In this document: positions 7,115 through 34,900 of the stretch, piece by piece
Layout: each line of letters opens with the position of its first letter
How positions within the stretch are numbered: position 1 is the stretch's first letter
Assembly (NCBI RefSeq): GCF_001484045.1
Contig: NZ_CP013128.1
Span: 1-64,000 of the forward strand
Length of the DNA: 64,000 nucleotides
Origin: Mycoplasma sp. (ex Biomphalaria glabrata)
Lineage (GTDB): Bacteria > Bacillota_I > Bacilli_A > Mycoplasmatales > GCF-1484045
Reading direction: 5' to 3'
Position numbers and translations under genes: made by a program
Notes under the pieces: generated by a model
What the model was told of the DNA's origin: nothing
What the model saw: only the letters and a program-made list of their open reading frames with translations
Database searches by the model: none

Positions 7115-7121
7115 ATTAGAT

Positions 7122-8394: not shown

Positions 8395-8400
8395 TATAAT
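8395..8400 (+). promoter_or_regulatory. -10 box before the membrane-anchored protein family
   Basis: TATAAT in an A/T-rich spacer, 33 bases before the ATG at 8434; an AGGGA ribosome binding site lies between. No good -35 box. Confidence 0.5.
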
Positions 8401-8433
8401 TCTATTAGATGTGAAATATAGGGAATAAAAAAC

Positions 8434-9483: not shown

Positions 9484-9550
9484 TTATTAATTTTACAAAA
9501 TAAGCATTAATTATTAATTTTACAAAATTAGATAGAAAAGAAAACACATT

Positions 9551-10114
9551 ATGTTAATTCAAAAAAATACTAAAAGTAAAAAGGCAAAAATTCTTGTTTC
9601 TTTAGGTGGAGTGATTGTTCTATTAACAGGTCTTGGAGTTGCGTTAGGCGAAACATTAACGCATAAAAATACAGGAATTAGTTATGTTGCTCCTTCAAAA
9701 TATAATTTACCAACAAATCAAGAAACAGTTGACTGATATAATTATTTATCACCATCAACTAACTCAAACTTAAAGGATTTCCAAGGTTTACAAACTACTG
9801 GAGTTAGAAATATACCAGGTATTAACGGTTGAACAAAAATTTCTAGTTTAACTGATCCTAATTTAGTTAATGCTTTTAATAATAAAAACTGTAATTATCC
9901 AGCAGGGTTTAAAGCGGTTTACGCTATCGCGCTTTGAGTTCCAAATCAAGACCACGGTGTCTGATCACATGTTCTTGTAATGGATGACAAAAACAATATT
10001 CTTGATTGTGTACAAGACTTCCGAGTTAATCCAGGAGTGCTTGCTGTTAGAGAAGGTTTTTCAAATTGAACAACTAATGCAATTCAATTTGATGGAACAA
10101 CAACTAATTATTAA
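9551..10114 (+). CDS. Membrane-anchored surface protein (paralog 2)
   Basis: 187 residues. N-terminal segment LTGLGVALGETLTHKNTG is near-identical to its neighbours, then one copy of the family domain (WYNYLSPSTNSN..., GWTKISSLTDPNLVNAF, SHVLVMDDKNNILDCV). It is very close to the protein at 10784-11359, indicating recent duplication. Exported and anchored by its N-terminal hydrophobic stretch; function unknown. Followed by an intrinsic terminator that also recurs behind the other copies. Confidence 0.85.
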
Positions 10115-10132
10115 TTATAATTCTTTGTAATG

Positions 10133-10159
10133 AAAAGAACCCAATTGGGTTCTTTTTTT
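10133..10159 (+). terminator. Intrinsic terminator of paralog 2
   Basis: AAAAGAACCC / GGGTTCTTTT with loop AATT and a T run. Nearly the same hairpin follows the genes at 11359 and 12419, so the terminator was copied with the genes. Confidence 0.9.
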
Positions 10160-10640
10160 ATTTAGCTTTATATTTTCATTAAGATACAACTACATTGTAG
10201 AACAAATTAAGTTTATAAGTATAAGGTGTGATGTCGGATGGAATTGCAGATTATAATTAAAATCAATCAACTCTTTGTTCTTTATTACAAAATTTAGTAC
10301 CAAAATTAACATATAGTGCGGATTCTAATATAAGAATAAGAGCATCATCTAATGATGATCCAAAATCTTCTTCAACATTATTTTTATCAGCTGATAAGAA
10401 AAAAAGGTGAGTGTAGTTACAACGGTTGATTTATTGTTAAATTCTTCTATACGAAAACGCTAAATATTTTCATGATCTTCATTTCAAGAGATCATTATTT
10501 AATAATAGATGAAAAGTATAATGTTATGGATTTAGTAAATAAATTGAAATAGTCAAAACGGAAAAAAAGATGAATCATTATCAAACTGGAATGATAGCTA
10601 TTTCTGATTTTATTTATCTAAAAAAATTTTTAAATCGCCA
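10160..10640 (+). pseudogene. Decayed fragments of neighbouring membrane-protein genes
   Basis: No open gene. Bases 10166-10225 match the leader of the gene at 12578. Bases 10223-10450 match its codons around 12868-13095 with many substitutions, stops and a lost 5' part, so this is a relic copy with an internal deletion. Bases 10500-10560 resemble the LAIDxxYNVxDL coding segment of the paralog family. The stretch is a graveyard of failed duplications. Confidence 0.75.
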
Positions 10641-10663
10641 ATTTATTTTTTAAAATTGTAACG

Positions 10664-10693
10664 GAAAAAAGAATCCGTGAGAGTTCTTTTTTT
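10664..10693 (+). terminator. Weak hairpin with T tract
   Basis: AAAAAAGAA / TTCTTTTTT with a loop of about 10 bases. Probably the terminator left by the decayed copy upstream. Confidence 0.4.
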
Positions 10694-10783
10694 ATCAAAA
10701 TTATCTTTTTTGGCAAAAAATATGTATAATGCTAAAGGTTTCGTTGAAAATAGCGAAATTAAATAAAAAGAAAAGGATTTAAA

Positions 10784-11359
10784 ATGAAAACAAAAAAATT
10801 AAATTTAAATAAAAAATCAAAAATTATAGTTTCTTTAGGAGCAGTAGTAGTATTACTTGCTGGTCTTGGAGTTACGTTAGGTGAAACATTAACACATAAA
10901 AATACAGGAATTACTTACACTTCTTTAGAAGGTAATATTACTCCTTCAAAATATAATTTACCAACAGATCAAGAAACAGTTGACTGATATAATCATTTAT
11001 CATCATCAACTAACCCAAACTTAAAGGATTTCCAAGGTTTACAAACTACTGAAGTTGTAAATATACCAGGTGTTAATGGTTGAACAAAAATTTCTAGTTT
11101 AACTGATCCTAATTTAGTTAATGCTTTTAATAATAAAAACTGTAACTATCCAGTAGGGTTTAAAGCGGTTTATACTATCGCGATTTCAGTTCCAAATCAA
11201 GATCACGGTGTTTGATCACATTTTCTTGTAATGGATGACAAAAACAATATTCTTGATTGCGTACAGGACTTCCGCTATAATCCAGGAGTGCTTGCCGTTA
11301 GAGCAGGTTATTCAGATTGAACAACTAATGCAATTCAATTTGATGGAACAACAAAGTAA
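10784..11359 (+). CDS. Membrane-anchored surface protein (paralog 3)
   Basis: 191 residues. Same architecture as the protein at 9551: basic start, hydrophobic segment LLAGLGVTLGETLTHKNTG, then one family domain with GWTKISSLTDPNLVNAF and SHFLVMDDKNNILDCVQDF. The two differ at scattered positions only. The ATG follows AAAAGGATTT; a TATAAT box lies at 10725-10730. No Cys lipobox. Function unknown. Confidence 0.85.
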
Positions 11360-11377
11360 TTATAATTATTTGTTATG

Positions 11378-11403
11378 AAAAGAACCTGATTGGGTTCTTT
11401 TTT
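11378..11403 (+). terminator. Intrinsic terminator of paralog 3
   Basis: AAAAGAACC / GGTTCTTTT, loop TGATTG, followed by T residues. Copy of the terminator at 10133. Confidence 0.88.
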
Positions 11404-11408
11404 ATTTA

Positions 11409-11510
11409 GTTTTATATCTTCATTAAGATATGGTAGATTTAGTTCATCAAGATGATAAAATTGAGAATGGTCACTAATAAGTTATGCGTTAAGTTATTTT
11501 AATTGCTGTA
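11409..11510 (+). pseudogene. Relic of a fourth-paralog-like gene
   Basis: Bases 11427-11505 match the 3' part of the gene at 11817 (VDLVHQNDETENGH... to the YALSYF codons) but carry stops and a deletion. Together with the ncRNA candidate downstream it fills the gap 11360-11816, which holds no intact gene. Confidence 0.65.
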
Positions 11511-11585
11511 CAAAAAAATAATTAACATAGGATAATTATTGATAAAAAAATAAAACATAAAATTTTGTATAAAAATTTTTTTTGG

Positions 11586-11703
11586 TATAATTACTAAGAA
11601 GTTTTGAAAAATAAGCTTCTCAGAACAAAATTAATAATATACAAATTTTGTTTAATTTCCTTATATATTTAAATCATCACGCCCCCTTTGTGATGATTTT
11701 TTA
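11586..11703 (+). ncRNA. Candidate small RNA with its own promoter and terminator
   Basis: A TATAAT box (11586-11591) with a TTTTGT-like -35 about 17 bases upstream would start a transcript near 11598. It can form a GAAG/CTTC hairpin, then an ACAAAATT / AATTTTGT stem (about 11633-11661), and ends at a strong terminator hairpin, AATCATCAC / GTGATGATT at 11672-11698 followed by T. No open frame with a ribosome binding site lies inside. Length about 105 nt. No known RNA family recognised. Confidence 0.5.
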
Positions 11704-11816
11704 TTTTAAATATTTATTTAAAATAAAAAATTGTCTTATATTATTTTTTTTCACAATCTAATATGAAAATATAAATAGGTAAAAAAACAATAAATATAAA
11801 TTAAAAGGAAAATTAA

Positions 11817-12419
11817 ATGGCAATTACGAAATACACCATAAATAAAAATTCAAAAATTTCTCTAGCGGTTCTTGGGATAGCTGTATTATTAACAGGAATT
11901 GGAATTACAATTGGCTTAGTTGTAAGTCAATCTAAAACAACAACTGGAATGACATTAATGGGTAATAAGGCAGTGCAGTGGGGAACTTATCCAGATGGCA
12001 AGGAAATGACTTCCTGATATAACAACATAGATAAGAGTAAAGATGCTAATTTAGAATCATATAACAACAATGTAATAACTAAATTTGGTGGATGACAATC
12101 TTTCGCCGATGCTTCGAAAGATCCGTGATACGGATTTATTATTTCAAAGATGGATTTACCAGCAGGGTTCACGCCTGTTCAAATATCAATGGTTGACGTT
12201 ACTGAAAATGCTAAATTATTAAATGGTGATATTATTAAAAGTACGGATGAGACTCATTATCTTGCAATTGATGTAAATTATAAAGTTGTTGATCTAGTTC
12301 ATCAAAATGACGAAACTGAGAATGGTCATTGACAAGCTGGTGTTAAAGGTTTATCGAATTGAACAACTTATGCGCTAAGTTATTTTAACTATAATCCGGA
12401 TTTTGTTAATCCCGTATAA
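11817..12419 (+). CDS. Membrane-anchored surface protein (paralog 4, divergent)
   Basis: 200 residues. N-terminal anchor LAVLGIAVLLTGIGITIGLVV; the C-terminal domain keeps the family marks WYNNIDKS, MDLPAGFTPVQISMVDV, THYLAIDVNYKVVDLVHQ and WQAGVKGLSNWTTYALSYF. It is closer to the domains of the 8434 gene than to paralogs 2 and 3. Behind its stop, 12420-12475 still resembles the 3' end of paralogs 2 and 3, so this gene end was made by recombination between copies. Confidence 0.83.
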
Positions 12420-12477
12420 TTTAGAAGTACTTGTTGTTGTTAAAGGCGTTTCAAACTAAACAACTAACACAGTAATG

Positions 12478-12503
12478 AAAAGAACCTAATTGGGTTCTTT
12501 TTT
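12478..12503 (+). terminator. Intrinsic terminator of paralog 4
   Basis: AAAAGAACC / GGTTCTTTT, loop TAATTG, T run. Third copy of the same hairpin. Confidence 0.88.
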
Positions 12504-12577
12504 ATTTAGCTTTATATTTTCATTAAGATATAATTACATTGTAAAATAAATAAAGTTTACAAGTATAAGAGGGTAGT

Positions 12578-13684
12578 ATGAAAAAATGAATTCTTAGTTC
12601 GTTATTCTTGCTTAGTTTAACTACCATTACTAATGCAGCCAATAATGTTAAAGATGTAAATGATTTTTATGAAGATGCAGTGTGTCAAGATTTAACTAGC
12701 ATGAATGACATGTACCTTAAAGGAATATCTCCTCAATTAACATTATCAAATACATCAATCAATAATTTTGATACTAATTTTGATTTTGGAGATTCTACAT
12801 TGCAAAATATCTCCGCTAATGATTTTTATATGGGCAGCAAAAACCCAGATTATTATCTTTTTACAAAAGGTGTGACATCTAATGGAACTGCAGATTATGA
12901 TTTAAATCAATCAACTCACGGATCTTTATTACAAAATTTAGTACCAAAATTAACAGATAGTAAGGATTCTAATGCAAGAATAAGAGCATGATCTAATGAT
13001 GATCCAAAATTATCTTCAGCATTATTCTTATCAACTGACAAGAAAGAAAAGGTGAGTGTAGTCACAACTATTGATTTATCGTTGAATTCTTCTATACAAG
13101 CTAATGCTTTTTTGATATCGATGGATACATCATACATTAAAAATAGTGACGCTTTAACTTCTATCCTCCCTACTCTAACCTTAAAAATTAGCAATAATAC
13201 TAATTCTAAAACTTATCAGTATGCAAGTAATGATTTAATGAAAATGGCTTATAATGATGCAACATCACCACAACAAGACGTGCATTCGTTTTTATTTTTA
13301 CTACCTGGAGCACCATCATCAATTAATTCTATTGAAATTAAAGAATCAGTTGATTTGGGAACGGTTAATGTAAACAATGGAGATGGTAGCGCTGCTCGCC
13401 CATGAAATGGTGGTATAAATAAATATTTAAACGAAATAGATAATGTAAATGCTTTTAATTTAAGTAATGCAAATCCGTTTGCTGCTCACCTTCAAAAATC
13501 ATTTGGAACCGGAGTACCTAACGTTCATAGCATTTTCCAATGATGAATTGTTTTAGTGATGGTGCTAGGAATTATTGCAATTTGATTTGTATCAACTACA
13601 ATAACTGTTTTTGTTAAGAAACGACGTGCTAATTCATTTAATAATGAATTTAGCGACAATGATGCACAAAATATAGATTTATAA
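12578..13684 (+). CDS. Type I membrane protein with signal peptide and C-terminal anchor
   Basis: 368 residues. The N-terminus MKKWILSSLFLLSLTTITNA is a typical signal peptide, cleavable after TNA. The exported body is rich in Asn and Ser. A transmembrane helix near residues 325-347 (WWIVLVMVLGIIAIWFV) precedes KKRR and a short cytoplasmic tail, giving N-out/C-in topology. Function not recognised. GAGGG lies 7 bases before the ATG. A decayed copy lies at 10166-10450. It ends 2 bases from the convergent DUF262 gene. Confidence 0.85.
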
Positions 13685-13686: not shown

Positions 13687-15239
13687 TTATATTTCTTTAA
13701 CTTCTTCTAAATAGCTAATAATTTTCCCTATAGTCTCTAATGATTTATTTTTTTCAGATATTTCACTACATTCATTAAATAACATTTTTACTGTCTTGAT
13801 TCCATCCGAAATGTTGTTTATGCTATCAAACAAATCAAATTGTTCATTATTGTCAACGTTTCCTTTATTAAATTCTTTTATAATTTTTCCATCATAATAT
13901 CCAGAATTGTTTCTTAAATCTTCTAAACAAGCATTATTTACTAATTGAAAATGTAATTCATTTGAATCGAATTTCCCCCTTGTACCTGTTTCAATTTTCG
14001 TTTTAATAAGTGTGATTTTTTTAATAAGACAAATAATTAATAGTTCTTTTGTTTTTAAAAATTCATCATTATTGAATTTGAATTTTTGATTATCTTTATT
14101 ATAAAGAATAGATATTATAATAGGTAAATAATCAGTTAATCCTAATCCACCTTTTTCTTTTGAAAATAAGTTTCGCAAGCTAATTCCACTACTTGTTTTG
14201 TAATAAAAAGTTATATACATTTTTACATACTTAACAATTGTTTCATTAAATAAATTATATAGTTCATCATTTTTTTTATTTGCTAAAATCTTTCTATAGT
14301 TTTCATAAATAACTCTTTCATCATTAACATTAACTTCATGCTCACTTTTTAAGTATGCTTTAAAAGCATCTAAAACTATTTTTTCTGCTTTTTCGTCAGT
14401 CATTTTTGAGCTCTTATTAGAAGATTGCATAATGATCTCTTTGAAATGAATTACTAAGTTTGCAACCATTTGTTTTTTCGTTAAATGACTTCTTTTTTCT
14501 CCTTCATCATCTGCTATGTTATTTATTAAAAATGATTTTAATAAATCAATGAAAGATAGTGGAATTCCTCTACTATTTAATTTAAGGAATGAAGAATGAG
14601 CTTTTTTACTAGATGGGTATTCAAATATATATATTTTTAAATCATAAAATAGCGAGTTTACAAATTTTTCAACGTTTTTTGTTCTCACTGAATCATCATC
14701 ATCATTACTATTAAAAAATTTTTCTAATTCACTGTAACATTTTAATTGTTTGTGATATTTATTTTTTTATTTTCACCATTAAATAAATGGGAAATTAAAT
14801 TATATGCTTCATATAGATTTGAATTTCTATTAGGTCAGTTACCACTTTCAAATACATTTTGATAATCTTCTTTTAAATTTTCCGAAAAAGCTTCTAAAGC
14901 TTTAAATTTTTGATTTTTATCAAATAGGATTTTTTTTATTTCCTTAGAAATTTCATCGCTTTCATCTGATTTTTCAGAATAACATAGTAAAACTAGCAGA
15001 GTTGTGGTAACTCTTTGCTGCCCATCTATTATTTCATTTTTTTCATCTTCGTTTTCATACACATGAATAATACCTAATGATGGATCTTGATTAATTTCTT
15101 TATATATGTCATCTAAATAAGCTAGTACTTGTTCAGTCCCTCATGCATATTCACGTTGATAACACGGTATATATAAATTTTTATACTCAGTCAAAAATTT
15201 ATATATTGAGTACTCTCCTAATTTATGTTTTCTATTCAT
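13687..15239 (-). CDS. DUF262 (ParB-like NTPase) protein, frameshifted in a poly(A) tract
   Basis: The start at 15239 follows GGAGGG and gives IPCYQREYAWGTEQV and EIIDGQQRVTTTLL, the defining DUF262 motifs of GmrSD/SspE-type restriction proteins. At T7 14762-14768 (A7 in the coding strand) the frame shifts; one more A would join it to the downstream part (KNKYHKQLKCYSELE..., KAHSSFLKLNSRGIPLSFIDLLK), giving about 517 residues. No DUF1524/HNH nuclease half is visible at the C-terminus. Last gene of the minus-strand defence cluster; its ATG overlaps the stop of the nuclease gene. The NTPase may sense modified DNA (inference). Confidence 0.82.
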
Positions 15240-16130
15240 ATCATCCCTCCAACGGATTAATTTGTCATTTAAATACAATTTCCTTTATTCCAGGGAAATT
15301 ATTAGATGTGTTTTCAAATTCTTTTATTATTTTTGATATTTCGTTTTTTTCGTTAGAAATGCTATATAATGTGAATTTGATTTCATCTATATCTATAAAT
15401 ATTTTTTTATATTCATTTATATTTAGTTCGTTATTTTTTTCTACAGAGAGCCATTTGTTGTTAAAAGTTTTAGAATTCTTTAAAGCATGATCTACATAAT
15501 CAAAAGCAGCTACTTCATTGCTAGAAAATTTTTCACCCAACGATAAAGTCACAAACATCAAATTAGTATTTTTCTTTTCTTTTAACGCTTTTAATTGCAA
15601 ATATTTTAATATAAAAATACCATTATTTTTTAATGTTGTTTTTATTTCATAAAATTCATTATTCATTTTTGCGTCATAAACATCTCTTTCATCAGAAAAT
15701 TCTATCTCCCCTTTTTCGCCATATTTTCAGAAAAATAAAGCTTCACCTAAATATCCAATAATGGTGTCAAAATTTTTATAACTAAAATTTGAAAATATCT
15801 GATTTATTTTTCCGATAATCTCACTAAAATTTTGATATAAATTATTTTTAATATATTTTCGAATAGTTCTAAAACTTCAGGTGCGCATTTTTCTAAAAAG
15901 ATAGCCTCTGCTTTGATAGTTTTACCATCTTCATTTGTATATTTAATTGATGAATTGTATCAAAAACCTTTAAATCTACGATAACGTAAATTTTCAATAG
16001 GTTTATCTATAGCATAAACTATTGTAGCTTCATCATCTTCATTATTTATTATTTTGTGAATAGTGATCCCGTTTTTATTTTTAAAAGAAAATATATTTTT
16101 AAATTCTAAAAAATATTTATTAATCGACAT
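15232..16130 (-). CDS. PD-(D/E)XK nuclease-like protein (DUF4420 type), frameshifted
   Basis: Start at 16130, overlapping the Z1 stop. About 298 residues if one A is added at the A5 tract (15845-15849 on the plus strand): without it the N-terminal half (KGFWYNSSIKYTNEDG, CAPEVLELFENILK) runs out of frame. The second half has IIGYLGEALFFWKYG, then DVYDAKMNNEFYEIKTT, the E...D...ExK arrangement of PD-(D/E)XK nucleases as in DUF4420 proteins, which are usual companions of Z1 and MutL-like ATPases. Predicted DNA cleavage subunit. Stop overlaps the DUF262 start by 8 bases. Confidence 0.8.
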
Positions 16131-17529
16131 TATAATTCTTTCCTGTTAGTTTTAAGTTATATTTTTTACTTAAATTACATATTTCGTGTTGTTTTATTTC
16201 ATTTACTTCAGGATCATTGATAAATAAATTTCTTATCTCATTATCGATTTTTCTTATATTTTCAAATTTATTAATAGTTTTTTCTTGCAAAAACAAAAAT
16301 ATATTTTCTTTTTGAAAATCATTTCATTTATTTCGATAACCAAATCAACGTGCCCTTTGTAAGATAGTATCTATAGGTGTTGTATCAGAATCTACTTGCA
16401 TATATGCATGAGTAAGATAATCGAAAGTTATCCCTCGACCTATTAAACTTGAACCTATTAAAATCATAGGTTTATTTTTACTAGACGGAATAGATGTATC
16501 GTTTCGGTTAATTGTTTTAATATTTACTTGTACACCACTTTTATCAACTATATCATTTGCTATTTTAAAAATTTCGTCATGAATTTTAGTTTCAATTGCC
16601 GGATTAATTAATAAAATTGGCGAATTATTATCAAAGAATTTTTTATGATCTTCATAAAAATTTAAAAAATGATTTATAGTTTTTTCTAAATCTTGTCTTG
16701 TGGGATTTTCATTAACAATAATTTCAATTTTTTTATAGTTACCATTGTGGAAAAAATCTAAACCGTGATATTTTCTTTTGTCGTTTTCTAAAACTATGCA
16801 ATATTCAGGAGCATACGAAGCGCTGCGATCTATCAGTAATAAACCATATGGCGTTGCTGTAAAAAAAATAAAAAAATATTTATTTATGTATTTATCTAAT
16901 TGATTTTCAAAAAAATTAGAAATTGATCTTTTAGTCTCTAATCTATTTTCTGATGAATCAGATGTTGCAACATCTGATTCATCATCAAAAATAACAAAGT
17001 TATTTATTTTATCATTATTTTTTCACATAAATTTTTTAAATTTTTCTATGTTATTTTTTTCTTTTAATAAAAAGAATAAATTAAAAGTTTTATTAGAAGC
17101 TATAGGTGCTGTTTGCAAATTGTCTGTTGTGTAAAATTGAATAAGGTCGTCATTATCTATTATTTTACGACATTCATCAATAATTCTTTCTTTGTTTTGT
17201 AATAATAATTCATTATTTGAATTAACGAAGAATATAAAATTCTTAATCCCGCAATCGATAGCTTTAAATAGACAACTAATCATACATTGAGTTTTTCCTG
17301 ATTGAACTTCCCCATAAGATATTGCATATAAATTTTTATTATTTTGGATAAAATTATCAAATAAAGGGATAAATTTATTTATATTTTTATTAATATATGT
17401 TGAATCTATGTATTTAGGTAAGTCGGATAAATATTTGTGAAAATATGTGCTTTCTTCATTGAATTCAACTTGCTTAGAATTACTAGGTTCCTCATATCTA
17501 TTTTCTAGATAAATTCTTATTTTATTCAT
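16120..17529 (-). CDS. Z1-domain superfamily II ATPase/endonuclease
   Basis: 469 residues, intact. Walker A YGEVQSGKTQCM, Walker B VIFDDESD, TATP motif, GSSLIGRGITFDYL and the Z1 signature DTILQRARWFGYR are all present in order. Z1 proteins are putative helicase/translocase components of MutL/MORC-type restriction systems. It is shorter than the 700-900 residues I expect for many Z1 proteins, lacking an extra N-terminal region. GAGGGAAACA precedes the ATG at 17529, which overlaps the previous stop by 8 bases; the next gene overlaps too, so the set is translated as a coupled unit. Confidence 0.92.
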
Positions 17530-19252
17530 TTGTTTCCCTCAAAAATATTTCTTCTATTTTTTTTAATCAATCTGGTAGATTTTTTTCAGGGATAAAATTT
17601 ATTGATTCTTTAATAACTTTTTCCATAATTTTTCTATTATCAAGAACTTCTTGTTTCGGGATAGAAATTAGTAATTCATTTTTATTGCGGCTAATTTCGA
17701 TTTTTTCTTTATCAATTTCGCAAAAATTAATCAATGTGTTTAAGTTACTATTTTCTTTTAAAGTTCCGGTCTCGATAAGATTTTTTTTAGTTTTTTTCAA
17801 ACTTTCTTTCAAACTTTCAAGAAAAAACGACATCAATATTCAATTTGAGATGGTATCTTTATCGTTATTAATTAAATTTTCTTTAATTTTTGACAATAAA
17901 TGCCCATTAGTAAAATCAAACTTATTTAATTGAGGTTTAAAAAAATTATTTTGCAAATAAATAGTTCCGAATATTCTTTGGCCAAAACTGATACCAGAAC
18001 CTGAACCTCATGATTTTAATTCATCGTATAAAAATTTTGGTCTAATTTTTTGTTCTGGTTTTTTAGTTTTTCCGTCTTCATTAGGGCCGTGATAAATGTA
18101 TCTATTGTCTTGGCTAATATTAAATCCCGTATTAACCTTATATGTTTGTTTATTATCTAGTTTTTTAATATAATAGCTAGATTCTGTTGTCATTATTCCT
18201 ACATCATATGAGAATTCAATTTCATTATCTTCACTATCAAAAACTTTTCCAGTTAAGTTTTTACCTAAAAAATATTTATCGTCGCTTTTTTTTAGAACAT
18301 CTAATAATTTTTTATAAATGCCATTGGGTTTAAATTTTCCAGAATTGCTTTTACAAATCTTTTCTTGATTTTCTTCGATATAATTTACAATCTTTTCCTT
18401 ATGTTTTTCAAATTCATCTAATAAATTATGATTATTTATTTCATCAGAAATTAATTTGTTTTCAAATAAGAGTTGTTGAATTTTTTCTATTCTCTCTAAC
18501 TTGATCGGGTTAAAATCTGTGATTGTTTCTAAAATATTATAATTAATTCTTCTATCTTTTCCGATTCTATTATAATAATATAATTCAATTTCAGCGTCGA
18601 TTTTTTTATCCAAATTTAGTAATTTTATATATTCATTTTCATTATTTTTTATTTTTATATATCTTTCGTATCTATTAAAAATACTTTGATAAATGTTTTC
18701 TGAATTTTCTGTAAAAGTGTTAAATCTATTAATGTCTTTTTCATTAAAAAAAACATTTGAAACTAAAAAATACGTTCCACGAGTTTTTTTAATTTTATTT
18801 TGATTTGTCTCATTTTGTGTCATAGAAGTTTTTTCATCATTTAAATCAATTTCAATTCTAGATTCTTTACCGTTATTATTTTTTGTTTCAATAATTCAAT
18901 TTCATCCATAGTATGCCAAAGCTGATTTAACACCATAACCGTGTTTACTTAAAGAAGATTCATTTCCATCTCAGCCACGCTTATTTTCCTCTATTGAAAG
19001 CATTTCTTTAAAAGATTTTTCTATACCAAAAGCATTATCTTCATACTCAAATGTTCTCTTTTGTTCATTAAATGTAATCTTTATTTTTAGATCAGAAAAA
19101 TTATGATCTTCCGCAGATTTTATTGAGTTATCAATGAATTCAGAAAGCATTAATCAATGTGGATTGGTTGTTTTTGATTGAGCCCTTCAATATTTTTTTG
19201 GGTTTTCAGTATATAATTTTTTTTCTCTATTTGTTTTAAAAATATCAATCAT
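17522..19252 (-). CDS. GHKL ATPase of the MutL/MORC type
   Basis: 576 residues. The N-terminal Bergerat ATP site is clear: LSEFIDNSIKSA (N-box Glu, Asn), YEDNAFGI (DxGxG-like) and SKHGYGVKSALAY. The remainder shows no nuclease motif; the C-terminus is rich in charged helices (KESLKKTKKNL). Bacterial MORC-like ATPases are known partners of Z1 ATPases, DUF4420 nucleases and DNA methylases in predicted restriction systems; here no methylase is present and a DndC-like enzyme sits just upstream. Start at 19252, 7 bases after dndC. Many TGA Trp codons, frame otherwise unbroken. Confidence 0.88.
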
Positions 19253-19259
19253 AATAGTC

Positions 19260-20661
19260 CTATCTTGTACAATTAGTTAAATTGTTTTCTATATTATTTC
19301 AAATAGAAAAAATAATTTCTCTCTCTTCCTCTAGAATTAAGTTTTGAAAATTATTATTGCTATTTAGTTTAGTTAATTTGTCATATATTTCTTTACGATA
19401 ACGTAAATTATATGGACCTATACCCGGGATTCTATAATCATTATCTTTAAAATGAATAATAATTTTACGAGCAAACGGATTACCTATTTCATTTCACATA
19501 TTTATCTTGTTTGTTTTAATTAAATTAATAAATTTATCTTTTGAAATAATTTTATATTTTCCATCATCAGAGACGGCTCATCCATTTTTCAGTATTTCTC
19601 AATTTTTACTTGGTCGTGTATTTTTTTTAGGAATAAAAAGTATTTTCTTTGTATCTTTTTCTTTGTATTTTAATCTCATTGTTCGATTTTTTACTAAGGT
19701 TATTTTTTTAGTCGATTTGTTAATTCTAATACTTCCTAAATACCTATTTTCAAATTTATCTCTTTCATCTTGTAATCAGTTTCTAAAATCTCTTAATGAC
19801 TCTAGTTCTTTATAACCATTGTTAATTAAATTAGTAATCGATCTATCTTCTTTGGCTACAGTACAAGTTCAACAACCTCATCGAGAGTTCCCACAACTAC
19901 TATTAACCTTCTTTGTTCCTATTTGATCAAGAGCTAATGGACATTCATTAGAACTATCTCTGTATAATTCATATAAGTTACCTGTGCTCACTTTTCAGTG
20001 TGTACTAGGTTTACTTAATAAATATTCTCAAACTTCTTTTGTGTCAAAATCTATAATAGGTTTAAAGACAAAGGCATTTGCATCTGTATTATGTTTATTA
20101 ACATAACGGTCATTGCTTAAGTTATTGTATTTTTCAAGTATTTTATCTCTTGCCCCACTCTCACCTTGTCGGACACCAATTACATAAATTACTTTTTTAT
20201 CTTTTGAAATTTTTTCACCGACATAATTTGACATAGAATCAATTTTTAATCTAGAAGTGCATCATCTAAATGTTTGATTTGGTGCAGGATAACCTCTTCC
20301 TATTAAATTAACTCAAAATGATTCTTCAATTTTTGGTCTTACTAATGCTGCAATTAATGGTAAATTATTTATTTTTGCAAAATCATTTATATTATTTATT
20401 GAGTTGGATAAGCTTTCAATTACTAGAGGATTTTCTACTAATGTGTCGGAACTTAATATATAAATTTTTTTATTTAGTTGATTTTTATCTAATTCTAAGA
20501 TGGATGAGATAATTAAATCCACAAGAAATGTAGAATCTTTTCCGCCAGAATAACCGATTACTCACGGTAAATCATTTTTATAGTACTCCTGTTTAATTAA
20601 GTTCTTGGCAAAAGTAATTTTGTCATTAAAATTATCGTTTTTTCCCTTAATGCTTGTTGTG
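19260..20661 (-). CDS. DndC-like sulfurtransferase (PAPS-reductase fold), start codon missing in this orientation
   Basis: About 467 codons. LPWVIGYSGGKDSTFLVDLI is the ATP-pyrophosphatase P-loop of DndC; RWCTSRLKID, CPLALDQIG and CGNSRWGCWTCTV supply the conserved cysteines that would hold an Fe-S cluster. DndC activates sulfur for DNA phosphorothioation. There is no in-frame ATG before the P-loop. The frame runs back into the inverted repeat (TTSIKGKNDNF) and meets a stop at 20688-20690; only an unlikely TTG at 20681 remains. After inversion of 20662-21564 it would gain ATG-TCC in frame (MSTTSIKGKNDNF) and a promoter. DndD and DndE are absent. Confidence 0.88.
20605..20632 (+). promoter_or_regulatory. 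Possible promoter of the recombinase gene
   Basis: TTGGCA (20605-20610) and TAAAAT (20627-20632) with a 16-base spacer, reading toward the recombinase. The -10 lies inside the inverted repeat, so an equivalent -10 would face the recombinase in either orientation while the -35 would change with the flank. Confidence 0.4.
20626..20661. repeat. Left arm of 36-bp inverted repeat (recombination site)
   Basis: Exact reverse complement of 21565-21600, ending in TGCTTGTTGTG on the plus strand. It also encodes the first residues of the DndC frame. The match stops abruptly at both ends, as expected for a maintained recombination site and not for an old duplication. Confidence 0.95.
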
Positions 20662-20675
20662 AGAAAGGAAAAATT

Positions 20676-21501
20676 ATGCAAGGAGCACTAATAGAAAAAT
20701 TTATCAAGCATTTAAAATATGCAGAAAATAAATCTTTAAATACATTAAACAATTATGAACATTACTTAAAAATATATTTAATAAGGTGTAGAAATTTCAA
20801 AATTACACTAGAAGGAAAGTTATATTTCCTAGAATATATTGATAAAACCTATAGTAACAATACTAAAAGACTAATTTTGACGGTGATAGATAAATTTTAT
20901 AAATATTTAAACAACATTGAAAAAATGAAAATTGAAAACCCCTTTTTAGATGTTATTAAACCTAGGATCGATAAAAAGGAATTGATAACTTTATCACCAA
21001 AAGAAATAAATATTATTTTTACATATTTGAAAAAAGAAAATAATTTACAACTGATCAAATTAATATATTTAATATATTATTCTGGGCTAAGAATTACAGA
21101 AGCTTTAAATGTTAAAAATAATGAAATATTAAAAAATGAAATATTTATCAAAGGAAAAGGAAATAAATATAGATATATAAATTTTCATCCCGATCTAAAA
21201 GAATATATCAACAAGAAAAACGATGATTTATGTTTTGTTACAAACACCAAAGAACCTAAATCAAGACGCTGAGCCAATTATTGCGTTAAAAAACTTATTT
21301 ATGAGTGTAAAATAGACAAAAAAAATATCCCCTCATACTTTCAGACACTCGTACGCAACAAACTTATTAAAAAACGGAACAAGTATTTTTACAGTTAGTA
21401 AATTATTAGGACATGCTAGTGTCAAAACAACAGAACATTATATTCATTGAAGTAAAGAATACTTAAATTCAGAGTATAAAAAAATAATCAAAAAAATATA
21501 A
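20676..21501 (+). CDS. Tyrosine recombinase (XerC/D-like), frameshifted at A8
   Basis: About 274 residues when one A is removed from the A8 tract 21318-21325. N-terminal SAM-like domain ([23 protein letters not shown]), then the catalytic set: Arg in [12 protein letters not shown], Lys in [10 protein letters not shown], His-x-x-Arg in [12 protein letters not shown], His in [16 protein letters not shown] and the following Tyr. The second half is read only after the shift. GAAAGGAA lies before the ATG at 20676. Lying inside the inverted repeats, it is the obvious enzyme for flipping its own segment. Confidence 0.92.
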
Positions 21502-21539
21502 TTTAACTTTTAATATATACACAAAGCACAAAACAGAGA

Positions 21540-21545
21540 TATAAT
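21540..21545 (+). promoter_or_regulatory. Outward promoter of the invertible segment (-10 box)
   Basis: Consensus TATAAT in the 58-base gap between the recombinase stop and the ATG at 21560. The leader would be only about 8 bases long with no Shine-Dalgarno. It points out of the segment across the right inverted repeat and now drives the HNH gene. Confidence 0.7.
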
Positions 21546-21559
21546 TAATAAGATAAATT

Positions 21560-22665
21560 ATGTCCACAACAAGCATTAAGGGAAAAAACGATAATTTTAA
21601 AGCAGAAAATGACTATGTTAGAAAATGAATAGATACTGTAAATTCAAACAATAGTGCACAACCTATAAACCTGTTTTTTCATTAGCATTAATACAATGCA
21701 TTATTAATAAAGGGCATAAGGGTCTGTATTACATTGAAATAAAGGATGTATTTGTAAATTTTGTTATATTATGTTGAATTTCTGCGGGTTATTATAAATT
21801 TAGACAAAATCCGACAGCAAGGAATAAGAGTGGAATCGATAAATGAATACTTCCTTTAATTGAGAATTTTAAAAAAACTTATAAACTTCCTGATAATGAT
21901 GAATGCGCTATTAAAGATATTAAAAAAGTTAAAAACTTTATTACAAATGAATACGACAAAAATAAAAATTTAAAAGAATTGAATACAATTTTCAAAAATG
22001 GACCTTATAAACATTTTGGGAAAAATTTAGAAATGATGAAAAAACATGAAAAAAATAATAAACCTTTTCAAATTGAAATAGATGAAGAAAAATATTTAAT
22101 TATTAAAAAATGAAAAAAAATTCTAATTAATGAATCTATTTTTAGATGAGCTGAATTAGTCGAAAAATATAATTATTCAGTTATTAATCCTATACAAAAA
22201 ATAGATTCATTTAAAGAAATCAACGGAGTTAAACGTGACATAATCACTTTCACAACGCATAAAGATATTCTTCAAGAATTTTACAATTCCATCAATCAAA
22301 GTGATGAAATTGAATGTTTTTATGATAGCATTTCTTTAAGGGAAATTAGTTGAGATCATTATATTCCTCATTCATACATGAGTTATGAGGATATATGAAA
22401 TTTAGTTCCAACTTCTATAAGTTTAAATAGTAGCAAAAGTAATAAATATCACGATAAATTTTTTAATAACGAAATTATTTGAAAACTATACAATAGAAAT
22501 GATCGTTTGTATAAATGGTTAATAGATGAAAAAGAACAGTTGGTAAAAGAGAAAAAATTTAAAGCATTAGATCTTGAAAAAATTATTTTTCAATTTAATT
22601 CTTGAAAAGAGTATGAAAAAATTAAGTCAAAGGTTGAAGAATTTAGAAGTTTTGATTGTATATAA
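21560..22665 (+). CDS. HNH endonuclease, frameshifted near its N-terminus
   Basis: Starts ATG-TCC at 21560; its first 13 residues MSTTSIKGKNDNF are encoded across the right inverted repeat. After about 35 codons the frame breaks at A3/T6 (21667-21679). One extra base, for example a seventh T at 21674-21679, rejoins it to a 368-residue product (SLALIQCIINKGHKGLYYIEIKDVF onward). The C-terminal third has an HNH core: WDHYIPHSY, then NLVPTSISLNSSKSNK. TGA Trp codons throughout. Partner gene of the switch; target unknown, possibly foreign or modified DNA (inference). Confidence 0.8.
21565..21600. repeat. Right arm of 36-bp inverted repeat (recombination site)
   Basis: Begins CACAACAAGCATTAAGG and is the exact reverse complement of 20626-20661. 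It lies inside the 5' coding region of the HNH gene, codons 3 to about 14. Confidence 0.95.
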
Positions 22666-22688
22666 TATTAGTAAAAATACGTATAATA

Positions 22689-25935: not shown

Positions 25936-28900
25936 TTATTTTCTTTTATAAAATAATGAACCTGCATTATTTTTATTTTTTGCTAATTTCTGCGCCTTTT
26001 TCAAACGTTCTTGTTTTTCCTTAGCTGATGAAAAACCTTTTACAGTTTTACCTGTTTGAACTTTGGCTCTAATTTTTCTAATTACAAAAAAACCTGTTGG
26101 TCCAAATATCAATACCGCTGCTCCAGCAATAATAACCGGAATTACTCAACTTGGTAACGAAGAAGTTTCTGATGGTGGAACGATGTTTGGTAAACGACTA
26201 ATTACTTCATCAATAGATAAAACTTGATTATTATAGTCTGAGCTTGCAAGACTTATATTTGTACGAATTTTTCGACCAGTTTCTAAATCATTACCAACAG
26301 CGATTTGAATATAGGTATCACGAACAGCTTTGATTGTATGATGCAATTCAGAAACTGAAGTAATTGTGTTAATTCCTTGTTGTGCTGGCATTGGTAATGA
26401 ACTTGTTCCATCATAATTTGGTGATTCGTTGGCAAAATCAAAAGTTAATTTGTCATATGTAACTGAAGCAACTGAGTTTTCGGTTGAGTTTGGTGTATCT
26501 AGATTTTTAACGATAGTAATTTTCTGTGCCAAATTATATTCTGGAGTTCCGGTTGTCATATCAGCCACTGTAAATAATAATTGATCAAATGGAAAAATAT
26601 TATTTGATGGGATGATTTTGTAAGTAAATTGTTGAACCCCTTTTGTAATTACCAATGTTGAACCATATTTTACATTTCCATCCTGTGAAGTTGGTGAGAA
26701 TGTGATAGTATCGATATCACCATTTAATAAATGTTGGCCGGAATTAAGTTCTATAATCGAACCAGATATTTTTGCAGCTCCTAATAATTTTGGTGAAGTC
26801 GGTTGATAAATTAACTGTAATGGCGCTCCATATTGACCAAAGAACATAAATGAATGAGCCATATTTACGTTATTTCAATCAGCATTATCATCTCCTTGCG
26901 TTAATGAGAATCATTGAGATGTCATATCATTTAAATCTGCAGCTGAAGTTGGATTACCAGCTTGATTTAGGAATTTCGCTAAAGCTTGTTTAGCTTGATT
27001 TAAATCTTGATAGTTACCTCGGTAATTTGGTTGAGTCTTTCAAGATTTATTACTTTCTGAGTCAGCTAAGAAGTTAAATATCTCTGTTTGTCTTTTGAAA
27101 CCTTTTTCTGTTGCTGCTAAATCTTTACTACTTAATTCAGATTGTTCGTTAGCAAAATTATCTAAATTATCGCTGAATTTTTTTCAAGCATCGTAACTTA
27201 AACGATAAGTTGCAGAAGAATCAGGAATAGTCATTAAATTATATGTTTCTTTATCTAGAATATTCATTGAAATATCTATGTCGATTGATGCGCCTGTTGG
27301 ACCAGTCACTCAACCTGGTAAATTAGGATAATTTAATCCAGAACCATTAAATGTTGCAAAATAACCCTTAGAAACAGCAGAGTACTTATTATTAATAGAT
27401 TGTAAATAACCACGGAATATTGTTGTTTGTTCATTTTTAAAATTTACTTCGTCATTTCTAAAATTACTAATCACATTTTTTTCTCATGTTGGATTTGTAG
27501 CGGAACTATGTAATGAATGGATATAAGTTTTTAAAGCTATTGTATTAAATACATCTGATGTTATATCGCCACCATTACGAACATAAACACCGTTAGTAAT
27601 AGCATTATCTCCACCAAGAGTCTTATATGTTAATCTATTACCGTTTACATCATTAATAAAACCTCTAAAAATTGGTTTATATTCATTAATGATGTTAGTA
27701 ATATCAGCATCAAAAGCCGTATTTTCTTTAGCAGTAAAGTTATCATCCTGAGTTAGGTTTGTTGTAATTTTATCCAATGCGCTATTGTGCAATCATTTAC
27801 CATTTGTTACACGATCAACATTTTGGTAATTTCCAGGATCAGCTTTTAACGCTGTTAATGTTTCATTTAAAACTCAATTAACATTATTGTTAGCTGTTTT
27901 TACCATTCCTGGTAAAAAATTGCTATTAATTTCAGTCATTGATGTATACCCAAAGTATGCTGCTTGATAGCTTGAAATTAATGAAGTAACTTCGGTAGTT
28001 AATGAATTATTTTGAAAATTAATGAAATCTGCTCCTGGAGTACCTGGTGTAGAACTCATATATGTTGATAGCGTTGTTTTAAAGTGAATTCCGCTTTTTA
28101 AGTTAGTTGCATGTGAACTATCGACCGTTTGAAAAATTTTATATGTTGATGCGGATGTATTAGTTCAGTTATTACTACTTCAGGTAGCTATATCTCATAT
28201 CGCATCTAGTGCTGTTGTTGTTTGTCATCCGATTATTGTTCTTACTGTTTGTGGCATAGATGTTTGAACGTTATAACCATAGTAATTATTTTTAAAGAAT
28301 GTATTAATTAAATTGTCATTAATATCTAATACAAGAGCATTCATTTGTTCATCACGGAAATTATTTTCTTTCGTTAATGAATCATAAGTTGTGTGAATAT
28401 ATTGTGATTCTCAATCTCTAGTATCATTATTTTTGGTAATCAAAGTTGTTAATTTTGCTAAAACTTTACTATACACCCACCCATTTGCAATTGTTGAATC
28501 AGTAGTTTCAAGTAAGTAATTTTGGGTAGTTGTATATCCCATATATCATTGATTGTAGAAATCAACAATCGGTTGAAGAATTTTTGACATTTCTGCATCT
28601 TGATAAGTTTTAAAATCTATTAGATTTTTTGAACCATTAGCAAATATTTTGATGTATTCCATCATAAATTTATTTCCATCACCAACAGCCGTTGAACGAA
28701 TAATTTCTAAGTCGCTACGAATTGTTACATCACTTCAATTATTATTACTGCTGCTATATTTAGATTCATATCATGTTCCTGTGTAACCGATTATTCCAAA
28801 ATAATTATTACGTCATGATTGATTAATTGAATTAATATCTGCCAATGCTGCTCTCAAATCACGAGCTAAGATGGTGTTTCCAGTTGGCAAATCACTACTT

Positions 28901-31900
28901 GTACCCAAATTTGTACCAAATGTTGTTAATGTAGAATTAATTGTTTTCAATGATAATGTGTGAGCGTAATTTCACATATTTGTTTTCAATTCATCAAGTG
29001 TTAGCATTGATATTGCTTGTGTACCAAATCATAAATTTAAACTTGTTAAATCAGCTCCAGTCGCATAACCATAATAGTTATCATTATATTGTTGAGCAAT
29101 TGATGCAATTTGATTAGTCAATTGTAATTCAGATCAAGTTTTATAATTTAATAATTCACCAATTGGTTCATTTGTTGATCCTTGTATTGTATATAACCCT
29201 TTTAAAAATCCGGCAATTGCTGTAAAGTCTTTTCCAGCATCAGTTACTAAATCACTCGTTAAAACTTGTGTACCAAATAACGTATATAAAGTATCAACGT
29301 CAGTTGGAACACCATTAGTGACGGTTCCGTTCATATTAAACATTAAAGCGATATGTTTTGAACCTACAAATACTTCAGTTGATGGTGAAACATCAAATTC
29401 ATAACCAAAATAATATTTATTTAAGATTGATAAAATTTTTGTTAAGTCACTTTTTGCTGCAGTTGTTTGGTTTGTATTAAAAGTTGTTAAATCGGTATCT
29501 GTAATTCCTTTCAAGAAAGTATAAATATGATAAATTCCTTGACCATTTTTCTCGTGGTTAGTAATTTTTATAATTGCATTATCGATTGTTAAAAGACTTA
29601 TTTGGTCGCTATCAAAAAAACTATCTAATAAATTTTGTGGAATTGAAGTTTCTCCGTATCCTCAATATTTTTCTCGAATTGATGTTCGAATAGCATCCAC
29701 ATTATTTCTAAATTTAGTATTTTGTTCTTGAATAAATTCATTCATATTTAGATCGCTAGCATCATTTAATCCATCAAAGAAATTGTGTAGTTCATATAAA
29801 TGTGGGAAACCATCTCCACCATTTTTTAATACAACGTTATTTTTAAAAGATGTAAATAATGTTGCTGAGTTTAATTGTGTTCCATTTGCAACATTCAATA
29901 AAATCGTAGTACTAATTAATGATGTACAGTCAGTCATATAACCAAAATAATTAGCTTCAATAAGATTGTATGTTGTAGTTCATGCTGTACTCAATGAATT
30001 ATTTTGATCATTGATAAAAGCAGTTACATCTGCTCCATTCTGAGTTATTCCATTAAAGTAAGAATGTGCACTTCATTTACCAACAAAATTTGGATCACTA
30101 GTTGGGAAGTTGGTAATAAAATATTGAGTTAATGTTGTTGAATCTAACGCAGTATCCAAGTTTTGTCCCATTAAAATATATTTTGAAATATTATTATCAG
30201 CTAATTTTTCAAAACCGTAATATGAAGAACTAATTCAATTTATTATGACTGTAAATCTTGCTTGCAATTGTGATTTTTGATCATCATTAAATTCTTTAAT
30301 ATCACCATCAGTTGTTATTCCCTCTAAAAATGTGCTAACAGCGTATTTACTTGGGAATCCGACCGTTGTGGCTGCTATTCCATTTTTAAAATTCGAAACG
30401 ATTTGGTTTAAAATGATTTCTATATCGATAGGATAGCCATGTAGAATAACCTGAGCAATGTCATTTGTTGTTAATAATGAACTAGACGGAGCATATCCAT
30501 AGTATGAAGGTGTTATTTCATCAACAATGCGTTTAAGTTCTTTATTTAAATAAATGTCTTGATTATTTTTGAAATCTAAAAATTGAGTTGAATCGATCCC
30601 TGCCGTAAACGATTTTAATTCTCACAACCCATTTAATCCGGTAGGAAAGCTTGTTGAACTAAATGTTGCAATAATTCCACTAGCAGTTAACTCTGTTCCT
30701 TCAGTAAAATTAACTAATAATTTATCAACATCACTAACAACTAAACCATCAACTGCTGTTTTTGTAATTCAACCATAGTAACCATCTTTAACACCGTTAA
30801 TGATGGTATTAATAGCGTCAGTCAGTAATTTTGTTTCATTAGTTTTAAATTTATTTGTTTCAGTAACAGTAATTCCTTCTGTAAACTCTTTTAATTCTCA
30901 CAACCCTTTTAATCCGGTCGGTAAATTCGTTGAACTAAATGTCGCAATAATTCCACTAGCGGTTAACTCTGTTCCTTCAGTAAAATTAACTAATAGTTTA
31001 TCAACATCACTAATAACTAACGAACCCGATGCTGTTTTTGTAATTCAACCATAATAACCATCTTTAACGGTGTTAATGATGGTATCAACAGCATCAGTTA
31101 ATAATTTTGTTTCATTATTTTTGAAGGAAGTAGCTTGAGTAGAATCAATTCCTGTTAAAAATTGATTCATTAGATATAACCCAGCAACACCAGTTGGTAA
31201 ATTAGTACTTGTAATTGTTGCAATAATTCCGCTAGCTGTTAACTCGGTTCCTTGCGTGAAATGAACGAGCAATTTGTCTACGTCGCTAATTACTAATCCA
31301 CCTGTTGTTGTTTTTGTAATTCAACCATAATAACCATCTTTAACAGAGTTAATAACGTCTGTAACCGAATTTGTTAATTTAGTTTTTTGATCATTTACGA
31401 AATTAGTTACATCTGCTCCATTTTGAGTTATTCCGTTAAAGTAAGAATGTGCACTTCATTTACCAACAAAATTTGGATCACCAGTTGGGAAGTTGGTGAT
31501 AAAATATTGAGCTAATGTTGTAGGGTTTAATTCTGTATTAATAACTTGCCCCATCAAGATATATTTTGAGATATTATTATCAGCTAATTTATCAAAACCA
31601 TAATAGTTTGGCGATATTCAATTAATGATAGTTGTAAATTGATTAGTCAATTGAGTTTTTTGGTCATCATTAAATTCTTTAATATCACCAGTTGAAGTTA
31701 TTGATTCTAAAAATGTGCTAACAGCGTATTTACTTGGAAATCCAGTTGCTGCAGCTGCTATTCCATTTTTAAAATTTGATAATACTTGCGCTAGCGTAAT
31801 TTCGGTAGCAAAATTCTGTCCATATAAAATAACTTGTGCTACAGTATTTGTTGTTAACAGTGAACTAGATGGATTATAACCGAAGAAAGAAGGATTGATG

Positions 31901-34900
31901 GCATCAAGAATTCTTTGCAGTTCAATATTTAAATGAGTTGATTGATTGTTACTAAAATTAGTTGTTTGAGTGGTGTCAATTCCTTCAACAAACGCTTTTA
32001 ATCCTCATAATCCTGTTAATCCGGTCGGTAAATTCGTTGAACTAAATGTCGCAATAATTCCGCTAGCAGTTAACTCTGTTCCTTCAGTAAAATTAACTAA
32101 TAGTTTATCAACATCACTAATAACTAACGAACCCGATGCTGTTTTTGTAATTCAACCATAATAACTATCTTTAATTAATCCAATAATTTCATTTATTTTA
32201 GCTGTTAGGTTAGTTTTTTGATCGGTAGTTCAGGCAATTACATCAGAATTTTGCGCATTTTTTAATGGGTCCATTATTGATTTGGTTGCTCATGGCCCAG
32301 GAAATTCAGCTGTCGTTGTTGGCAAATGAGCGATAAAATATTGGGCTAAAGTTGCGGAGTTTAAAGCGGTTCCGGCTGTTTGCCCAATAAGTAAATAATT
32401 AGTGATTTTGTTGTTTGTTAAACCTGCATATCCGTAGTATGAATTATTAATCAAATTGATAATTGATTGAAAATCTGCTTGAAGATTTGTTAATTGCGCA
32501 TCTTTTCAAGTTGTAAATTGTGTAACTCTTGTAAAATTATATTTCGAAGTAGCAGCTGTTCATGAATAAAAAGTACTTAATTTATTGTATGTACTTTTTG
32601 TATGTGTAAACAAATTAATAAATGTAGTTTTATTGATTAATTGAGACGGTGAACCACTAAAATAAGCACTTACATCAAATTTATTAACTATAGCTGGGTC
32701 AGGATAACCTAAATATTCTGTTTTTAAGAAGGTATCATATAAATCATTTATTGCTCCATTAAAGGAATTTAAATTAATATCTTTATATGCTTGGAATTCA
32801 ACAGTGTACCCGAAAGGAAATTTTTGAGTATTTGCATCTTTTCCAGCAATAATTGAAACACTTATGTTATTTCATATTTTTGAAGAAATAAATAAATTTA
32901 ATGCTGTTTTACCGTTTCAACTACTACCCGTCATAACATTTACTCATCGAGCTTTAAGGTCGTTAACTGTGCTAATTGGGTTAGAAGTGTTTTGATCAAT
33001 GTAATAATTTCATAAAGTGTTATTAGCACTATTAATATCTGCAAAACCATAATAAAATGTATTAAATTCTGCAAATATTTGAGTAATATAATAATTTAAT
33101 TGATTACTTGATCAGTTTTTAAACTCATTAAAAGCCATTTCAATACTTGAACCTGAAGCAATATTAAAGTAAGGATCAATAAATCTAATTGGAGTTCCAG
33201 AAGTTAATTTATTTTTAAACTCATTTATTAATCTTTGTAACCCAGTTTTTGGATTACTAATATCATTGTCTGATTTATCAAAAATTAACCCATTATTAGT
33301 ATCTAATACGTAAGTTGGAAACATGTTGGGTAAATTAGTTTCATTATATCAACCTCATTGGTGACCTAAAGATGTTCCTTCAAGGGTAATAATTCATTTG
33401 TCATAAGTACTATTTAGCAATGTTTGAATAGCTTGATTTTGGATACTTACGAAATCAGTAATAATTTGGTCATATTCAGCTTGAGAAATAGTGGGTAAAT
33501 TTGAAGTTGCAGCTATTGTCATATCGCTAATGGTCATAGGGCTAAATGAAAAATCATCTTTTTTACCTAATCATGTTGCTATATTTTCGATAGCTGCTTT
33601 CTGAGCCGCTGTTGCTCCGCTAGTATGAAGTGCAGTTAAATCAACAAAAAACAAATTTTGTGAAAAAAAGGTGGTAAATTGTTGAAGAAGTGGGCTTGTA
33701 GCATCATTTCTAAAATGTCTTTGAAAAACATCTTGTGATGAAGATAAATCAAGAGTTATTATATCTTTGCCAGTTGAAGCAATGTAGTTAATTTTAGAAC
33801 TACTAAAAGTTTGTTCATTACTAAAAAAAGTTTTAGCTGTATTGTAATCATAAGATTCTAAATTTGTGATTTTGTCATTTTCAATATTAAAAGCAAAATA
33901 TCTACTACTTCTTGGTATAGATTTTGCATCTGGAGTGTTAGACATAACTCCGCTTGGAAATAAATAATAAATGTCATTATGACCTTTAAAAAAAGAAAAA
34001 GTTATAGCTTCAGCAGAATAGAACTCGTATTCACTATTTTTGGGAAATTGAAAACTAGCAGTTGCTGTAGCGTTACCTTTTGAATCTATAACACCCATAT
34101 CTAAATTCGCTGAACTGGTTCCGTTGTCTCCTAAATTTATAAAAATGGTTCCATTGTCACTCTTAAACGTTCAGTATCCAAGAGTGTTCTTATATGGAGT
34201 AAAATTTATTGTAAATGGTTCAGCTTGTACATCGCTATATAAATTCTTTCATCCTAATAATGGTTTAGATGGATCAGCTCCACCACTATAGTCATGTTTT
34301 GGTATGGCAGTATCATCAACAAAATCAACATCTTGGACATCGAAACCAGCATCAATGCCAGCCACATTAAACCCTGCCAATGTTCAATTTGGATTTCTAG
34401 GATCAAAATTTATTAAACGATAAACTTCTATTAGTTTAGTATCTTGAGAAATTCACGTAAAGGTTATTATCTTATATTTATTTATCGGTTCAGTATTATC
34501 GTAATATATGCTAATATTTCTAATTGTATTTTGTCCTAAATTACCGCCAGACAAAACATATGTCGTTGAGTCACCGCTTTTTAAGTTAGTTACCCCCGCA
34601 CTTCACAATCCGGTCCCATAGGGATTAGAACTATCACCGCTATCACGGAAAAAGGTAACTAAATCTTCGCCTACTATTTGAGGTTTCAACACTATTTTTT
34701 TACTAACATCAAAACCTAAACTAACCTTCTTGTTTACAACCGTTAATTCTTTAGTTGATGGATCGATTGAGTATGTGGCAAATGAATCAAAATGAGGTCT
34801 TTTAAAAGTTGGAACTCAATAAGGAACAACAACATATTGATCAGATTTTATGGTTGTAAAACCAGAATTATCTCTTAGATTATTCCCTCCGAAATTACTA

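Follow-up and report, generated by a model that had tools for sequence, protein, structure and literature searches.

The present analysis concerns the first 64 kb (hereafter the window) of the genome of Mycoplasma sp. (ex Biomphalaria glabrata), a mollicute that decodes TGA as tryptophan and whose genome is a single contig of 647,830 bp, and within it a 975-bp segment, bounded by inverted repeats, that lies between an HNH nuclease gene and an operon headed by dndC. We consider it likely, at a probability of roughly 0.8, that this segment is a bidirectional inverton that carries both a promoter and a start codon and can serve one or the other of two defence modules. A tyrosine recombinase resembling XerD, encoded in the segment, would recombine the 36-bp repeats, inverting the 975 bp between their outer ends. 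The right end of the segment would supply an outward promoter and an ATG-TC, to which the repeat would add TTSIKGKNDNF as the following residues. As assembled, this donated start would be fused to the HNH nuclease gene, and after a flip to dndC, where it would drive a dndC-MORC-Z1-nuclease-DUF262 operon. That operon would constitute a restriction-modification-like system with a phosphorothioation-type DndC in the slot usually held by a DNA methyltransferase, and a cell would at any time follow only one of two defence programmes that exclude each other. The reading is built on directly established features: a repeat restricted to two copies, a recombinase, the course of the reading frames, the identities of the domains and the positions of the N-termini. 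From these we infer that inversion takes place and that expression follows orientation. The elements of the proposed switch and its two flanking genes are as follows.

20626..21600 (975 bp), no strand assigned: putative invertible segment, both repeats included, from the repeat search and in-silico inversion
20626..20661, no strand assigned: left repeat arm, perfect 36 bp, coding part of the DndC N-terminus (TTSIKGKNDNF)
21565..21600, no strand assigned: right repeat arm, perfect 36 bp, coding part of the HNH N-terminus (TTSIKGKNDNF)
20676..21501, plus strand: tyrosine recombinase (Pfam Phage_integrase), read across two frames, the shift lying at about 21330 (CCCC)
21516..21545, plus strand: outward promoter-like site TATACA-18-TATAAT, 10/12 consensus, with the -10 box at 21540-21545 and a poor -35 box
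21560..21564, plus strand: putative donated start, ATG (21560-21562) and the first bases of the next codon (ATG-TC), abutting the right arm from inside
21560..22665, plus strand: HNH nuclease gene (HNH_4), on the promoter side as assembled, with a frame shift at about 21655 just before TTYK
19260..20660, minus strand: dndC (TIGR03183), with no ATG as assembled and a frame open across the left repeat
20679..20681, minus strand: TTG, the only canonical start codon upstream of the DndC P-loop as assembled, without a Shine-Dalgarno-like sequence

A sequence-only reading of this DNA had described a perfect 36-bp inverted repeat enclosing a tyrosine recombinase, a TATAAT and an ATG-TCC, and all of these were found in place, the repeat at exactly 20626-20661 and 21565-21600, the TATAAT at 21540-21545 and the ATG-TCC at 21560. 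Of all perfect inverted repeats within 3 kb, this pair is the longest that the window contains, the runner-up measuring 18 bp, and in 20 first-order Markov shuffles the longest such repeat reached 14-20 bp. By BLAST the match stretches to 49-50 bp at 92%, and no copy beyond the two arms was found in the 647,830-bp genome; within the window no additional copy was found with up to three mismatches. No inner palindromes of the kind present in a dif-like core site were found in the 36-bp repeat. The arrangement has the form of an inverton, with inverted repeats flanking a TATAAT and an ATG, the promoter being recognized by consensus. The recombinase is the only gene in the segment and has its own ribosome-binding site, AGAAAGGA, just inside the left arm. 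Its closest solved structure is E. coli XerD, and the catalytic motifs SGLRITE, GKGNK, HTFRH, LGH and Y are all present, spread over two frames such that the shift at about 21330 separates the front half of the catalytic domain from the half with HxxR...Y. It is the sole tyrosine recombinase detected in the genome, and a genome search for serine recombinases found none.

An argument for a switch comes from where the flanking genes begin. As assembled, the ATG at 21560 reads across the right arm toward the HNH side and gives MSTTSIKGKNDNFKAENDYVRKWIDTVNSNNS, followed past a one-base shift by TTYKPVFSLALIQC, the HNH N-terminus predicted for this orientation being MSTTSIKGKNDNFKAEN. Read-through of the right repeat into the HNH gene had been proposed from the letters, and the read-through stands; the HNH frame itself is not continuous, being shifted at about 21655 before TTYK. 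In HNH relatives the TTYK motif lies 25-40 residues from the N-terminus, and on alignment the frame through the right arm reaches residues matching the family N-terminus just before this motif; the next start codon of the HNH frame's own is not found before 21979. On the other flank the DndC frame is open through the left repeat and lacks an ATG, as had been described, and the accompanying claim that it has no start at all must be amended for the in-frame TTG at 20679-20681. Inversion of 20626-21600 in silico gives dndC an in-frame start, MSTTSIKGKNDNFNDK..., read on as MSTTSIKGKNDNFNDKITFAK, just as had been predicted. Counted on the alignment, the SGGKDS P-loop of DndC then falls at about residue 40 of the inverted allele, and in several Spiroplasma-like DndC relatives that start at an ATG of their own it falls at about residues 34-37. 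Family alignments thus show independently that DndC and HNH both have their natural N-terminus at the repeat. Because both N-termini are so placed and no other good start is available to either gene, a switch is indicated rather than a chance repeat or a random insertion, and the idea of a recombinase-driven flip element giving promoter and start to one flank only is supported by these N-termini and by the lack of any other detected tyrosine or serine recombinase.

The same evidence bears on whether there is any switch at all. The segment could be a small unit, mobile or captured, that consists of a recombinase gene and terminal inverted repeats and was inserted by chance between two genes; the recombinase is after all the sole gene in it, and the guanine-plus-cytosine (GC) content of the surrounding island (13687-22680) is 0.23-0.24 against 0.285 in the flanks, which suggests acquired DNA. 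Random insertion would be unlikely, however, to keep both flanking genes open in the same phase through the repeats and to leave their N-termini at the repeat, and there is no other copy of the unit in the genome and no copy of the 21-bp repeat core in a collection of viral contigs, so that this explanation is considered very improbable. The viral contigs likewise held no relative of the recombinase or of the window HNH protein.

Several observations nonetheless count against an inverton. Promoter-like sites in this AT-rich region occur at chance level, with 15 found and 19 expected from shuffles, and the TATACA-18-TATAAT site is accordingly treated as a candidate promoter; a TTG start is available to dndC as assembled; no second orientation was seen in any genome examined, nor were relatives carrying the element found among those genomes; and an apparent one-base shift interrupts each of four island genes, at about 21330 in the recombinase gene, at about 21655 in the HNH gene, near 15850 in the PD-(D/E)XK gene and near 14760 in the DUF262 gene, a density of 4 shifts in approximately 9 kb that looks higher than in control stretches. 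Should these frameshifts be real, the segment would be fixed in the dndC-off orientation for want of a working recombinase, and the HNH protein would be dead.

The first two of these points allow for constitutive expression of dndC, started at the TTG or driven by antisense promoter-like sites within the recombinase gene, with inversion merely modulating it. The TTG is in the DndC frame, and a leftward promoter-like site scoring 10/12 lies at 20800-20771. Against this, the TTG is without a Shine-Dalgarno-like sequence, the chance frequency of promoter-like sites applies to the leftward site as well, and the inverted arrangement gives DndC an ATG as well as a natural-length N-terminus; constitutive expression is regarded as improbable.

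With respect to the flipped form, a search of related genomes for the inverted order with an intact dndC start had been suggested, and no flipped copy was found among 320 genomes of the order, a comparison set that holds no second genome of the same family. DndC occurred in eight of these including the present one, the HNH protein only here, and elsewhere there were distant recombinases only. In the seven Spiroplasma-like dndC loci and eight MORC-Z1 loci examined, the surroundings of the operon start contained neither a recombinase nor a near-perfect repeat. In a Rhodobacter metagenome-assembled genome a recombinase lies immediately upstream of dndC; it was considered as a parallel case and set aside, the inverted repeat being absent.

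The broken frames raise the possibility that the segment is a phase-locked relic, i.e. a former switch of the same anatomy and origin as the proposed inverton, frozen with dndC off by true frameshifts in the recombinase, HNH, PD-(D/E)XK and DUF262 genes, in an island that is decaying. Four of the island's seven genes carry one-base shifts where other window genes that were scanned have full-length or near full-length domains; the assembled orientation is the one that silences dndC; and although the recombinase shift lies at CCCC and those near 15850 and 14760 lie near A runs, the HNH shift is away from any long homopolymer. On the other side, the DndC, MORC and Z1 frames are intact with conserved motifs, both 36-bp arms are still perfect in the assembly, and the same type of defect is found in genes of the ATP synthase, so that the shifts may be errors: atpG (locus L130, 12629-13515, at about 312,600-313,500 of the genome) is split over two frames matching Pfam positions 4-39 and 44-285, and atpD (locus L130, 11204-12640) is without an in-frame start. 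Because of these two genes, one-base indel errors in the assembly are possible. To judge how frequent frameshifts are, the window was set beside three control stretches of 20 kb each; a home-made model for counting them was dropped, as it was too noisy for a rate and took overlapping genes for shifts. A frozen relic is therefore a serious contender but not the expected case, and that the segment is able to flip in this strain today is slightly favored.

If the segment is an inverton, the module on its left would be the operon that begins with dndC and continues with four further genes.

17522..19252, minus strand: MORC/MutL-type GHKL ATPase (HATPase_c_3)
16120..17529, minus strand: Z1-domain superfamily-II helicase/ATPase, from domain matches
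15232..16130, minus strand: PD-(D/E)XK nuclease, DUF4420-like, from position and motifs (GEAL...YEIKTT), divided between two frames near 15850
13687..15278, minus strand: DUF262 protein (GmrSD_N, DndI/SspE-like), divided between two frames near 14760, at an A run

The identities originally given to DndC, MORC and Z1 are upheld by domain and profile matches. DndC scores 340.6 bits against TIGR03183, above the cut-off of 290.4 for a DndC sulfurtransferase, and its P-loop and cysteines are invariant in the family alignment. Pfam gave no score for the window pieces of the PD-(D/E)XK gene, which is called a nuclease by position and motif. Operons joining a MORC ATPase, a Z1 helicase and a restriction-fold nuclease were described in 2008, usually with a DNA methyltransferase and in a paper that does not mention Dnd (PMC2292703); the present operon brings together the same GHKL/MORC ATPase, Z1 helicase and PD-(D/E)XK-like gene, but no DNA methyltransferase serves as its modification gene and DndC stands in that place. 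The window Z1 protein also has a weak PADLOC match to MzaC. The replacement of the methylase by DndC in MORC-Z1-nuclease operons was found in seven Spiroplasma-like genomes as well, with no dndD or dndE apparent beside dndC, and other MORC-Z1 operons in the group gave no DndC match. These DndC-MORC-Z1-nuclease operons are possibly an undescribed sulfur variant of this type of restriction-modification. Neither MORC nor MutL/GHKL is mentioned in a 2024 survey of phosphorothioate systems (PMC10853773). A comparable exchange is known from type 4 BREX, a defence backbone in which the methyltransferase is replaced by a 3'-phosphoadenosine 5'-phosphosulfate (PAPS)-reductase phosphorothioation enzyme (PMC12839542), although there the backbone is PglZ/BrxC/BrxL and lacks an inverton, and here it is MORC/Z1.

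The operon resembles the DndABCDE-FGH and IscS-DndBCDE-DndI systems in its DndC, which exceeds the family cut-off, and in its DUF262 protein, which is similar to the N-terminal half of DndI/SspE (PMC11662687). It differs from them in its partners: DndB, DndD and DndE were not found in the locus, a profile search found no match to DndD above cut-off anywhere in the genome, and DndE was not apparent at the locus, no genome-wide search for it having been made. Because no dndD was found, we only infer that DndC produces phosphorothioate in this organism. One class-V aminotransferase at 229793-230905 of the genome is a candidate cysteine desulfurase and could fill that role for DndC. The exchange of DndC for a methyltransferase, with no DndD in this genome and none seen in the operons of the seven relatives, calls into question which partners DndC needs. 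Separately, the window DndC scores 224 bits against the PADLOC profile PDLC03333, 'MTase_II' (type II methyltransferase), which may contain DndC-like proteins through misannotation. The AT-richness of the island noted above also suggests that it was acquired horizontally.

A further question is why the two modules would be wired to exclude each other. The sequence-only reading had proposed that the HNH enzyme attacks phosphorothioated DNA and must be off when DndC is on, in the manner of type IV restriction. Mutual exclusion as wired would fit this, and phosphorothioate-dependent enzymes that join a sulfur-binding domain (SBD), an SRA domain and HNH exist, e.g. ScoMcrA (PMC7461809, PMC3009677). 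Nothing specific was found in its favour, and the proposal was not adopted. In the window protein Pfam found HNH-family matches only, with no sulfur-binding or SRA domain of the fused kind seen in ScoMcrA-type enzymes, and the same was true of its two Dnd-linked relatives. One of these, in Anoxybacillus, lies divergently beside dndBCDE, and the other, on a Heimdallarchaeota contig, is in one operon with dndBCDE and a DndA-like gene; if the HNH protein always attacked phosphorothioated DNA, such a relative and an active dndBCDE could not coexist in one operon, and the position of these two beside intact dndBCDE speaks against constitutive attack on phosphorothioated DNA there. These two are also the only ones of 80 named dndC loci scanned in which the HNH family is linked to dndC. 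Relatives are standalone HNH proteins mostly in non-Dnd contexts, paired with a methyltransferase (Acinetobacter and Pseudoalteromonas plasmids, other Bacillota), sitting with HIT or MazG-like genes, or near a DUF4007/class-V aminotransferase locus on a Treponema plasmid. We therefore regard it as unlikely that the wiring exists because HNH cuts phosphorothioated DNA. The broader proposal, that the inverton feeds two antagonistic defences, a phosphorothioating DndC-MORC-Z1 system and an HNH protein incompatible with phosphorothioated DNA, such that each flip would change the chemistry of self DNA in a clonal population, is doubtful to the same degree.

The opposite specificity can be considered as well. 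DndI spares phosphorothioated DNA alone (PMC11662687); if the HNH protein did the same, the state with HNH on and dndC off would be suicidal. The simplest reading is that HNH may be a conditional effector, infection-triggered or held as a backup and not keyed to phosphorothioate; standalone nucleases found at the margins of Dnd loci have been proposed to play such a 'backup' role (PMC10853773). A structure model of the window HNH protein had a mean predicted local distance difference test score (pLDDT) of 39.9, too poor for use. As an observation apart, the HNH family recurrently adjoins small partner genes (Methyltransf_11/25, HIT, MazG-like) and in this resembles an unnamed two-gene defence pair.

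The proposed inverton is assembled from parts of known kinds. That surface proteins of mycoplasmas and hsdS genes undergo phase variation is established (PMC2268961, PMC4948785): disruption of xer1 locks phase in Mycoplasma agalactiae, and M. penetrans has invertible promoters (PMC2268961). The Xer1/vpma system of the former and the mpl promoters of the latter are similar to the present case in that a local mollicute tyrosine recombinase and short repeats change which gene bears the promoter (PMC2268961). Those systems switch surface lipoproteins, whereas here two unrelated defence genes, one on either side, would in turn obtain their promoter and start codon from the mobile piece. Inversions of hsdS by HvsR in M. 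pulmonis, as well as those of hsdS in Streptococcus pneumoniae, likewise place DNA modification or defence under recombinase-driven inversion (PMC4948785), but they shuffle recognition domains, and here inversion would pick between two defence modules by means of a donated start. In the literature searched, we found no phosphorothioation-type defence under an invertible promoter and no inverton lending one start codon to two different defence programmes, so that the combination of these parts was not found there. If the segment is active, a clonal population could spread its risk over two anti-phage states, and comparing the two orientations of one segment would make it testable why certain DNA-marking defences cannot stay on always.

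Two other features of the window were noted in passing. Positions 45075-63896 hold a row of large paralogous repeat proteins, several of which end at GELxNWKxWExQ as though cut at one repeat point, and these are a possible antigenic-variation family. In addition, a mechanical count of open reading frames gave two giant frames of 3066 amino acids each in different parts of the genome, one at 3583-12783 of locus L129 and the other at 25936-35136 of the window, the latter being rich in repeats.

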